From Terasakiella sp. SH-1 (GTDB taxonomy: Bacteria; Pseudomonadota; Alphaproteobacteria; Rhodospirillales; Terasakiellaceae): a DNA stretch of 64,000 bases. Position 1 is the first letter of the stretch. Each line of letters begins with the position of its first letter. The position numbers were made by a program, and so were the translations under genes. The notes beneath the pieces are model-generated. The model ran no database searches. It was given only the letters and a program-made list of their open reading frames with translations, and was not told the DNA's origin. The stretch is from positions 3,211,501 to 3,275,500 of the forward strand of contig NZ_CP038255.1 of the NCBI RefSeq assembly GCF_004564135.1, written 5' to 3'. Below, piece after piece: positions 32,229 to 34,631 of the stretch.

Positions 32229-33254
32229 TTATTTCTTCAGATGGTCACGTACCAGCGCTTCGGCAATCTGAACAGTGTTCAGGGCTGCCCCTTTGCGCAG
32301 GTTGTCAGACACACACCAGAAAGACAGGCCGTTTTCAACCGTATCGTCTTTGCGGATACGAGATACATAAGTCGCATCTTCACCTGCACATTCGACCTGA
32401 GTGACGTAACCTTCATCAGCGCGATGGTCAACAATCACCAAACCGTCTTGCGCTTTCATCACTTCACGTGCGCGCTCTTCATCAATCGGCTTTTTCGTTT
32501 CAATGTTGATATATTCCGCATGACCGACAAAGGCTGGAACACGACAGCAGTTAGCGTGAACTTTGATGTTTTCGTCGAGAATCTTTGCCGTCTCAACCTT
32601 CATCTTCCATTCTTCTTTTGTCGCGCCATCATCCATGAACACATCAATATGCGGAATACAGTTAAAGGCAATCTGCTTTGTGAACTTCTGCTTGGTTTCA
32701 GATGCAGGCTTGTTCATGAAAATGCCTTTGGTCTGTTCAAACAGTTCGTCCATAGCTTCTTTACCGCCACCGGAAACAGACTGATATGTAGAAACGATCA
32801 CACGCTCAATCTCAAATTCTGCGTGCAGCGGCTTCAACGCAACCATCATCTGAATTGTGGAACAGTTCGGGTTCGCGATGATCCCTTTTTTCTTATAGTC
32901 CCCAATCGCTTCCGGGTTAACTTCCGGCACGATCAGTGGAATATCCGGGTCCATACGGAAATGGGATGTATTATCAATCACAACCGCACCCGCTTCAGCC
33001 GCACGCGGAGAATATTTCGCAGAAATCGCACCACCTGGTGAAGACAGTACAATGTCTGTCCCTGTGAAATCAAATGTATCCAGATCCTGTACTTTCAACA
33101 CCTGATCTTCCCCATAAGAGATTTCACGCCCGACAGAACGACGTGAAGCCAGTGCAACGACTTCATCTGCCGGGAAGTTGCGTTCTGCCATAATCTGGAG
33201 CATTTCACGGCCCACATTACCAGTGGCACCCATTACTGCGACTTTATAACCCAT
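32229..33254 (-). CDS. asd: aspartate-semialdehyde dehydrogenase
   Basis: A 341-residue enzyme reducing aspartyl phosphate to aspartate semialdehyde, the branch point to lysine/diaminopimelate, threonine, methionine and isoleucine. GATGNVGREML is the NADP loop at residues 9-19, NPNCSTIQM holds the catalytic Cys, and VSTYQSVSGGGKEAMDEL follows. AAAAGGATTTAAAA precedes the ATG. The 280-base leader contains a short Lys/Thr-rich reading frame and a terminator hairpin, strongly suggesting control by attenuation. Confidence 0.96.
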   Translation of the reverse strand: MGYKVAVMGATGNVGREMLQIMAERNFPADEVVALASRRSVGREISYGEDQVLKVQDLDTFDFTGTDIVLSSPGGAISAKYSPRAAEAGAVVIDNTSHFRMDPDIPLIVPEVNPEAIGDYKKKGIIANPNCSTIQMMVALKPLHAEFEIERVIVSTYQSVSGGGKEAMDELFEQTKGIFMNKPASETKQKFTKQIAFNCIPHIDVFMDDGATKEEWKMKVETAKILDENIKVHANCCRVPAFVGHAEYINIETKKPIDEERAREVMKAQDGLVIVDHRADEGYVTQVECAGEDATYVSRIRKDDTVENGLSFWCVSDNLRKGAALNTVQIAEALVRDHLKK

Positions 33255-33329
33255 TTTTAAATCCTTTTTAAGTTACGGTCCCGTTGGTTTTACCCGCCTG
33301 GCCCATTTCCCATCTAGATATTACATACG

Positions 33330-33406
33330 AAAAAAGGCCCGAAGCGGTATTCCCCGCGAGGGCCTGTTTTTCGAATATATAATCCGTTTACCTGGTTCCT
33401 CGCGAG
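33330..33406 (-). promoter_or_regulatory. attenuator: terminator and competing antiterminator before asd
   Basis: Terminator: AGGCCC (33365-33360) and GGGCCT (33340-33335) with an inner GCGG/CCGC stem, followed by six T residues at 33335-33330. Antiterminator: CTCGCGAGG (33406-33398), two bases after the leader stop codon, pairs over nine positions (one G-U) with CCTCGCGGG (33361-33353), which is part of the terminator's left arm. The two structures exclude each other. A ribosome resting at the leader stop would cover the first segment and favour termination; stalling upstream would favour read-through. Confidence 0.75.
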
Positions 33407-33408
33407 AC

Positions 33409-33534
33409 TTACGTCGTCTTTGTCAACGTTGTCTTGGTCGTTTTGGAGCCGATGAGAAGCGTGCACGCCACATCATCCGCAAAAATCTTTGCGGTTGTCT
33501 TTTTCACAGACATGATGTTCAGCGCATTTAGCAT
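33409..33534 (-). CDS. Lys/Thr-rich leader peptide of asd (41 residues)
   Basis: ATG at 33534, TAA at 33411-33409. The 41-residue product ends KTTKTTLTKTT; overall it has 11 Thr and 7 Lys. These are the two main end products drawn from aspartate semialdehyde, as expected if shortage of charged tRNA-Thr or tRNA-Lys stalls ribosomes here. GAGAG 11 bases before the ATG could be its ribosome site, rather distant. Too short and too biased for a normal protein; the position between a promoter and an attenuator gives it meaning. Confidence 0.75.
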   Translation of the reverse strand: MLNALNIMSVKKTTAKIFADDVACTLLIGSKTTKTTLTKTT

Positions 33535-33566
33535 AATAAAAAACACTCTCTTTAAAACGTGTTCTT

Positions 33567-33595
33567 TACATACTGAAAAGATTCACATTTGTCCA
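33567..33595 (-). promoter_or_regulatory. likely promoter of the asd leader
   Basis: TGGACA (33595-33590), 17-base spacer, TATGTA (33572-33567) on the minus strand; transcription would begin near 33560, about 26 bases before the leader ATG. Confidence 0.5.
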
Positions 33596-33602
33596 GTGAT
33601 GT

Positions 33603-34373
33603 TTATGGCCGTGTCCAGCTTTCCACAAGCCCGTCAACCAAAGGCACCTGTAAATTATTTTCATGTAACGTCACCGGGCCTTTAATCGCACTGGCAAAAC
33701 GTCGCTTTGCAATCACTTCTGCTTTTCCTGACACAAAACTGATCACGCGTAGCTCATGACGGGTCATATCAGGCACGATGATATCAACGGTTTTATCCCG
33801 ATTCCAGTCCACAATCTCATGAAGGTCCAGCTCTTGCGCCCCCATTTTATGGTTGGAAAAAAACTCAGTGGCTTTATCCGCAACAAGCTTTTTGCCCTGA
33901 CGTTCATAAAGTTGCAACTTGCCGCCAATATGGGGCGTAATCACCGCTGCGATTTCCAGTTTACGATCCCGATCAAAATCCCCAATCCCAATGGGGTTTT
34001 GCCAGCGAAAAGCTGTCCCGATTGCCGGGCTTTCTGCCGCAATCATCAATTGACCAGAACGCACATCCAACACCACAAGCGCCGCCCCCCGGTCTTGATA
34101 ACTGCGCACCACCAAAATCGCTTTACGCCCATTTAAGCCCATCGGCACAAGGCGTGGGGTGACATCTTCAAAAACAGAGCCTTCATCCAGACGAAAAGAC
34201 AAAATACGGCCATCATCCATAATTGCCTCAATCGCTTCATATTCAAGACAATCACCCAGCACACAATGGTCATAGCGGTCCGTCGGCAAGACAAAACGTG
34301 CAGAAACAATATCATCAGCCCAGACCATTTGGCTGATCACAGTGAAGAGCAAAGTAAGGATCAATCGGAACAT
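33603..34373 (-). CDS. secreted VCBS/FG-GAP-like repeat protein
   Basis: A 256-residue protein with a signal peptide (about residues 1-19, ending VWA-DD). Two stretches, GIGDFDRDRKLEIAAV and VDWNRDKTVDIIVPD, are the calcium-binding Asp-rich turns of VCBS/FG-GAP beta-propeller repeats. A possible disulfide pair is in HCVLGDCLEY. It is probably periplasmic or surface-exposed; role unknown. It is upstream of asd on the same strand, but asd appears to have its own promoter in between. Confidence 0.65.
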   Translation of the reverse strand: MFRLILTLLFTVISQMVWADDIVSARFVLPTDRYDHCVLGDCLEYEAIEAIMDDGRILSFRLDEGSVFEDVTPRLVPMGLNGRKAILVVRSYQDRGAALVVLDVRSGQLMIAAESPAIGTAFRWQNPIGIGDFDRDRKLEIAAVITPHIGGKLQLYERQGKKLVADKATEFFSNHKMGAQELDLHEIVDWNRDKTVDIIVPDMTRHELRVISFVSGKAEVIAKRRFASAIKGPVTLHENNLQVPLVDGLVESWTRP

Positions 34374-34449: not shown

Positions 34450-34631
34450 TAGGGTCAGGACCTCTTAATTTATTGCGTTTGGCGGAGCTAAAAATAAAGG
34501 TGGATTAGGCATGACACTCGCCGCAGTGCCATCCACTGCAAAAGTTTTATAACGCTAGCCACCTTTATTTTTAGCCCGTCCCTTCGGGATTTGTAGAAAA
34601 TGACGCAATAAATTAAGAGGTCCTGACCTTA
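34450..34631. mobile_element. MITE-like element with nested inverted repeats
   Basis: The outer arms (34453-34478 and 34603-34628) are perfect 26-bp inverted repeats beginning GGTCAGGACCTC; counting one mismatch they extend to a TA on each side. A second perfect 17-bp pair, GCTAAAAATAAAGGTGG (34487-34503) and complement (34559-34575), lies inside. There is no reading frame. Size (about 180 bp) and flanking TA suggest a non-autonomous element moved by another copy's transposase. It abuts the 3' end of rmuC. Confidence 0.75.

Follow-up and report, generated by a model that had tools for sequence, protein, structure and literature searches.

What is the role of a short open reading frame (ORF) that ends in a run of lysine and threonine codons and is followed by a hairpin with a T run, upstream of asd, the gene for aspartate-semialdehyde dehydrogenase? 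The question arises from a 64,000-nucleotide (nt) stretch of the Terasakiella sp. SH-1 genome (NZ_CP038255.1), hereafter the window, in which asd and all leader elements lie on the minus strand. The enzyme that asd encodes supplies the shared precursor of lysine, diaminopimelate (a cell wall component), threonine, methionine and isoleucine, and the pathway beyond it has Lys and Thr among its end products. The original prediction was that a Lys/Thr leader-peptide attenuator controls the gene. Our analysis makes it very probable that the leader acts on asd by ribosome-mediated transcription attenuation and senses charged transfer RNA (tRNA)-Lys and tRNA-Thr.

All the parts that had been proposed were found in the window where they had been placed. 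The leader ORF has 41 codons, from an ATG at 33534 to a TAA at 33411-33409 (33409-33534; the ORF list starts the same frame at an upstream GTG). Its product has no Pfam match, and its 3' end carries the regulatory codons, which encode KTTKTTLTKTT (33412-33444). Two bases past the stop codon lies CTCGCGAGG (33398-33406), the antiterminator strand or segment 2, which can pair over nine positions, one of them G-U, with CCTCGCGGG (33353-33361), or segment 3. The latter is within the left arm of an intrinsic terminator (33330-33365) formed by AGGCCC (33365-33360) and GGGCCT (33340-33335) with a T run to 33330, and its partner is either segment 2 or the right arm. The terminator-like match returned by a consensus scan was the inner stem (33356-33340) of this same hairpin. 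The asd gene itself (32229-33254, ATG at 33254) was identified by Pfam domains PF01118 and PF02774 and by its relatives, and AAGGA (33262-33266), outside the terminator, is likely its ribosome binding site. Upstream of the leader ORF is a promoter-like pair (33567-33595), TGGACA (33595-33590) and TATGTA (33572-33567), with a 17-nt spacer. The locus has three features of the attenuator class: a run of end-product codons, a terminator between the ORF and asd, and an antiterminator that excludes the terminator and would lie under a ribosome at the stop codon.

In the proposed mechanism, when Lys-tRNA and Thr-tRNA are both ample, the ribosome would reach the leader stop codon and cover segment 2, the terminator would form and transcription would end near 33330. 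When either one is scarce, the ribosome would stall in the Lys/Thr tract and leave segment 2 free to pair with the left arm of the terminator before the right arm is made, and the polymerase would continue into asd. We infer from the sequence that the Terasakiella leader ORF is translated, that ribosomes stall in it and that asd transcription changes in response. A hairpin within the leader ORF (33470-33518; ACATCAT/ATGATGT around CCGCAAA/TTTGCGG), seen by folding and by comparison within the genus, may be a pause site keeping ribosome and polymerase in step. Its outer stem is kept in five of six Terasakiella genomes with compatible changes (a T-A pair becomes C-G in T_pusilla), and two of its seven outer pairs are lost in HF_Din02. 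Folding of the leader had been put forward as a check, with a divided outcome: the whole leader folded better than shuffles (z -2.6) and its final 91 nt did not (z -1.0).

The six Terasakiella genomes that we compared, the window's own included, all carry one genus label within the family, and the window asd is 95% identical to that of T. brassicae. A Lys/Thr-rich ORF was present in every one of them, ending 119-157 nt upstream of asd, and the alignment (n = 6) showed that the tract is kept, as are the post-stop segment, the terminator and its T run. Differences within the tract consisted of codon gain, codon loss and synonymous change. Segments 2 and 3, which were picked by hand, can pair over nine to ten positions in 6/6 genomes, with several G-C/G-U exchanges. 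The -35/-10-like pair was kept with its 17-nt spacing in all five rows that reach that far, the relatives also having TTGACA or TAGACA with TATGAA. Conservation of the Lys/Thr codons and of the pairing segments in all six genomes largely supports the predicted attenuator, and both were also found in members of other families. Their loss in close relatives, which the original prediction named as a ground for refuting it, was thus not observed.

Regions upstream of asd were collected from three sources: 80 named contigs; 31 loci and 60 hand-picked ones from the same order, where asd was found in 192 of 199 genomes searched; and 28 further loci and 40 hand-picked ones from a sample of the class, where it was found in 173 of 190. 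As the hand-picks favoured family diversity and the loci were best matches, the rates given here are not those of a random sample. The 240 loci yielded 231 regions after removal of L234, whose asd start could not be located, L014 and L072, with short upstream sequence, L001, which repeats the window, and five identical copies. Within the 320 nt next to asd, short ORFs were scored for each of 190 residue pairs at thresholds of 7, 8 and 9 of 11. Lys/Thr ranked first at all three (50, 40 and 21 of the 231 regions), the second-ranked pair at 8 of 11 being Ala/Thr, with 14. The reverse strand gave no Lys/Thr match, and 1155 shuffled regions gave none at 8 of 11 and one at 7 of 11. At 6 or more of 11 there were 56 candidates, of which 51 were kept and five (L026, L033, L049, L066 and L096) dropped by eye as not leader-like. 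Within the same order, leaders were found in 42/91 genomes and 11/28 families; counts were 6/6 in the window's own genus, 11/11 in family f21, 4/4 in f11, 5/6 in f22, 4/5 in f6 and 6/10 in f27. In other orders, 7 of 68 genomes and 6 of 60 families had one.

The association is specific to asd. Where loci exceeded 2 kb (n = 131), the final 320 nt ahead of asd, 41,920 nt altogether, contained 17 Lys/Thr-rich short ORFs, versus two in the remaining 1,249,804 strand-nt (both strands); those two, at L010 and L012, are also asd leaders located further upstream, so that 19/19 such ORFs precede asd. At these two loci (about 2114-2501) we observed by eye a small open frame between the leader with its terminator-like sequence and asd, an arrangement in which the attenuator would control two genes. 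In the whole genome of the window, the Lys/Thr codon pattern gave five matches at three places. One of these is the asd leader and the other two are within open frames, one 616 codons long and the other at least 230; the same pattern written backwards, as a control, had nine matches. Three other pathway genes of the genome, those for aspartokinase and homoserine dehydrogenase and dapA, had no such leader, the best short ORF upstream reaching 3-4 of 11 Lys/Thr. A wider Lys/Thr leader regulon was thus rejected for the three genes examined, and asd would be its own control point in this genome.

The signal is also specific to the two amino acids. Equally A/C-rich codon pairs were seldom found at 8 of 11 in the 231 regions (Asn/Thr 1, Lys/Asn 0, Gln/Thr 0, Lys/Gln 0, His/Thr 1, Pro/Thr 4, Lys/Pro 2), compared with 40 for Lys/Thr. 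With a maximum of four for any such pair, what is detected is Lys and Thr rather than A/C-rich DNA, and the explanation of the tract as an A/C-rich spacer was rejected, in agreement with the composition of the tracts. In the 51 kept tracts, Thr accounted for 52.2% of residues and Lys for 23.5%. All four Thr codons (ACC 177, ACG 53, ACT 35, ACA 28) and both Lys codons (AAA 81, AAG 51) were used, every tract contained both amino acids, and 47 had at least two Lys. The last Lys/Thr codon was 0-2 codons from the stop in 45/51. Some families have Ile codons inside the tract (TIKATIKTATT; L100, L107, L115, L130, L135), an arrangement that hints at the reading of a third pathway amino acid. Over all tracts Ile was not enriched, at 2.9% versus 4.5% in the rest of the ORFs.

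We then considered the switch that would follow the tract. A hairpin with a T-rich tail came after the leader in 47/56 candidates and in 44/51 kept leaders. The pairing of the post-stop segment with the left arm of the terminator was better than that of its own shuffles at p<=0.05 in 32/47. In a second version of this test, the segment was taken from the end of the tract and another hairpin finder was used, which suits L003 and L004, where the stop codon is further downstream. This version covered 34/51 loci, the other 17 being dropped because the finder took in the U run or another hairpin. The pairing was again better than shuffles at p<=0.05 in 22/34 (median z -2.5), and in 27/34 it was stronger than that of an equally long segment taken from before the tract. 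Segments and arms are matched within each genome: a leader's own segment-arm pairing averaged -19.7 kcal/mol, versus -17.1 and -17.2 kcal/mol across families (44 loci). When the arms were permuted among genomes, 0/20000 permutations were as good as the own arms, and when each of 15 families was represented by a single genome, 11/5000 draws were. Measured from the end of the stop codon, the pairing began at -9 to 0 nt in 30/34 loci and between -19 and +7 in all of them, which places the predicted start of the antiterminator where the terminating ribosome would sit.

The expected effect of the ribosome was modelled by masking its footprint and folding the RNA up to the terminator loop, a stalled ribosome being placed on the first codon of the tract. 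For the window, modelled capture of the left arm was 0.17 with the ribosome at the stop codon and 0.78 with the ribosome stalled. Over 44 loci the means were 0.49 and 0.74, with a rise of more than 0.2 in 22 and a fall of more than 0.2 in none.

Several observations weigh against an attenuator of this kind. The consensus promoter scan of the leader region called no promoter, versus 1.2 expected in shuffles. Outside the tract the leader ORF is not conserved as a peptide (of the codons in a 22-codon block of the Terasakiella leaders, three vary synonymously only and 10 change the amino acid), as expected if it is the reading of the ORF that counts and not its product. No leader was found in 17 families of the same order, for example in 0/13 genomes of f18 and 0/7 of f31, and the U-tail test found no terminator in 7/51 leaders. 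Only 6/34 loci had an antiterminator that matched the terminator in strength (-19.9 versus -24.5 kcal/mol in the window); as the duplex is mostly the weaker of the two, antitermination must be kinetic. In the mask model, the shift was 0.2 or less in 22/44 loci, and mean capture without a ribosome (0.74, 44 loci) was equal to that with a stalled one, giving no sign of a protector (1:2) hairpin. A trp-type protector hairpin that sequesters segment 2 was accordingly not found, a feature that the broad attenuator class does not require, and with no protecting pairing for segment 2 in the model, read-through is to be expected when the leader is not translated. The tract composition comes from 51 loci chosen for Lys/Thr and is hence descriptive; the 190-pair survey, the 131-locus count and the counts of A/C-rich pairs are unaffected by this choice. 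Finally, the Terasakiella case is built on sequence and on modelling.

Could the terminator simply end the upstream gene (33603-34373), the Lys/Thr frame being due to chance or to an A/C-rich unstructured spacer? That gene shares the strand of the leader, with its end some 240 nt short of the terminator, and A/C-rich RNA is indeed unstructured. However, the promoter-like pair sits between this gene and the leader, and the upstream gene was found at only three (L082, L083 and L004) of the six Terasakiella loci; at L004 it is more than 1 kb from asd and the leader is still there. (The L087 locus is short, so its missing upstream gene means little.) Together with the first rank of Lys/Thr among residue pairs and the rarity of equally A/C-rich pairs, these observations leave this explanation very little credence. 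A riboswitch or other ligand-binding RNA, such as a lysine riboswitch, a T-box or the Lactobacillales asd motif, would fit the better-than-shuffled folding of the whole leader, which includes the hairpin within the ORF. Yet no Rfam family matched the window at gathering thresholds, a relaxed search of 33230-33650 gave one unrelated match on the other strand (E 0.53), and such an RNA leaves the Lys/Thr codon signal unexplained; we give this possibility almost no weight. The remaining alternative is translational attenuation, in which a stalled ribosome alters how accessible the ribosome binding site of asd is. The Terasakiella locus speaks against it, having a U-tailed terminator some 75 nt ahead of asd and AAGGA outside that terminator, and as an account of this locus it is highly unlikely. 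It is more plausible for the Rhizobiaceae, and transcription attenuation remains the reading that we prefer for Terasakiella.

Leaders in the Rhizobiaceae were found through a tblastn search of a plasmid collection with asd (76 records, eight of them examined). Four of the eight had a Lys/Thr leader: S. meliloti Ak57 and Sinorhizobium sp. K101, whose leaders end in ...ARKTTAKTTTKTV with exactly six Thr and three Lys, Shinella (...KTTAKTTTKTV) and Rhizobium NLR16a (...AKTKAKTTTKTV). The other four, from Methylobacterium bullatum, Ruegeria, Tritonibacter and Sphingomonas parapaucimobilis, had no leader. The record of S. meliloti Ak57 "pSymB" (CP090106.1, 3.7 Mb) is chromosome-sized and carries asd, and is probably mislabelled. 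The region after the stop codon is unlike that of Terasakiella. By eye, no U-rich terminator was seen between leader and asd in the four Rhizobiaceae, which are close relatives, and the post-leader stretch before asd (L257, L258, L259 and L262, about 790-900) is partly conserved. It includes an invariant GCTCTCTC that can pair with AGAGAGC directly before the asd start. In the mask model, the probability of this pairing was 0.81-0.88 with the ribosome at the stop codon, 0.22-0.41 with the ribosome stalled four codons earlier and 0.02-0.13 with it stalled eight codons earlier, a drop seen in 4/4. Mean unpairedness around the asd start, on the other hand, rose on stalling in none of the four (in S. 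meliloti it went from 0.54 to 0.45 and 0.41). On this modelling, a translational output in the Rhizobiaceae is a fair possibility. We also advance, tentatively and at somewhat less than even chances, the idea of an old and widespread alphaproteobacterial Lys/Thr sensor at the branch point of the aspartate family. Its sensing part, the codons and the post-stop switch strand, would have been kept while its output came to differ between lineages, being transcription termination in Terasakiella and its relatives and release of the asd translation start in the Rhizobiaceae.

The original prediction presented a combined Lys/Thr attenuator on asd in alphaproteobacteria as not known to have been described, which is not quite right. 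A 2023 paper on S. meliloti, in its available text, suggests that SEP5 is a Thr/Lys leader peptide before an "aspartate dehydrogenase" gene, and gives evidence from ribosome profiling (Ribo-seq) and Western blots for its translation in that species (PMC10117765). The six Thr and three Lys codons of SEP5 are matched exactly by the L257 leader, which is upstream of an annotated aspartate-semialdehyde dehydrogenase gene. The same text describes SEP5 as conserved in Sinorhizobium only, and mentions neither a terminator nor an antiterminator (PMC10117765). The leaders in Shinella and Rhizobium indicate that it is not confined to Sinorhizobium. Beyond the SEP5 suggestion, no description of asd attenuation in alphaproteobacteria was found in a search of a literature collection with few subscription journals.

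Two features of the neighbourhood may be recorded here. An IS1595-type transposase gene (PF12762, 31465-32127) adjoins asd downstream on the opposite strand. Located between an rmuC-like gene and the gene that precedes the asd leader is a 182-bp stretch (34450-34631), bounded on both sides by inverted repeats of 29 nt (97% complementary) and with another inverted repeat, of 17 nt, inside it; from its sequence it looks like a small non-autonomous mobile element.

If the attenuator is as proposed, a single short ORF on which two charged tRNAs are read sets the flow into the aspartate branch in many alphaproteobacteria, and what was suggested for one genus grows into a family whose anatomy can be tested and which offers clear sites for mutation. 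The class of mechanism is already known; new are its breadth, the anatomy of the switch, the codon specificity and the leaders of Shinella and Rhizobium. The enterobacterial thrL leader, with Thr and Ile codons and a terminator/antiterminator, controls the thrABC operon. It resembles the Terasakiella leader in joining a two-amino-acid leader peptide to a terminator/antiterminator for aspartate-family biosynthesis, and differs in reading Thr/Ile for thrABC where the latter reads Lys/Thr for asd. The asd RNA motif of Lactobacillales (RF01732), named after asd and, in the available account, of uncertain cis-regulatory status (PMC2864571), belongs to another phylum and has no match in the window. 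The uORFC-8-2 motif, which as far as the available text describes it has Cys codons upstream of cysS in Rhodobacterales, differs in its single amino acid, in serving a tRNA synthetase gene and in its order, and is like the Terasakiella leader in being an alphaproteobacterial leader ORF with predicted stalling and read-through (PMC8632094).
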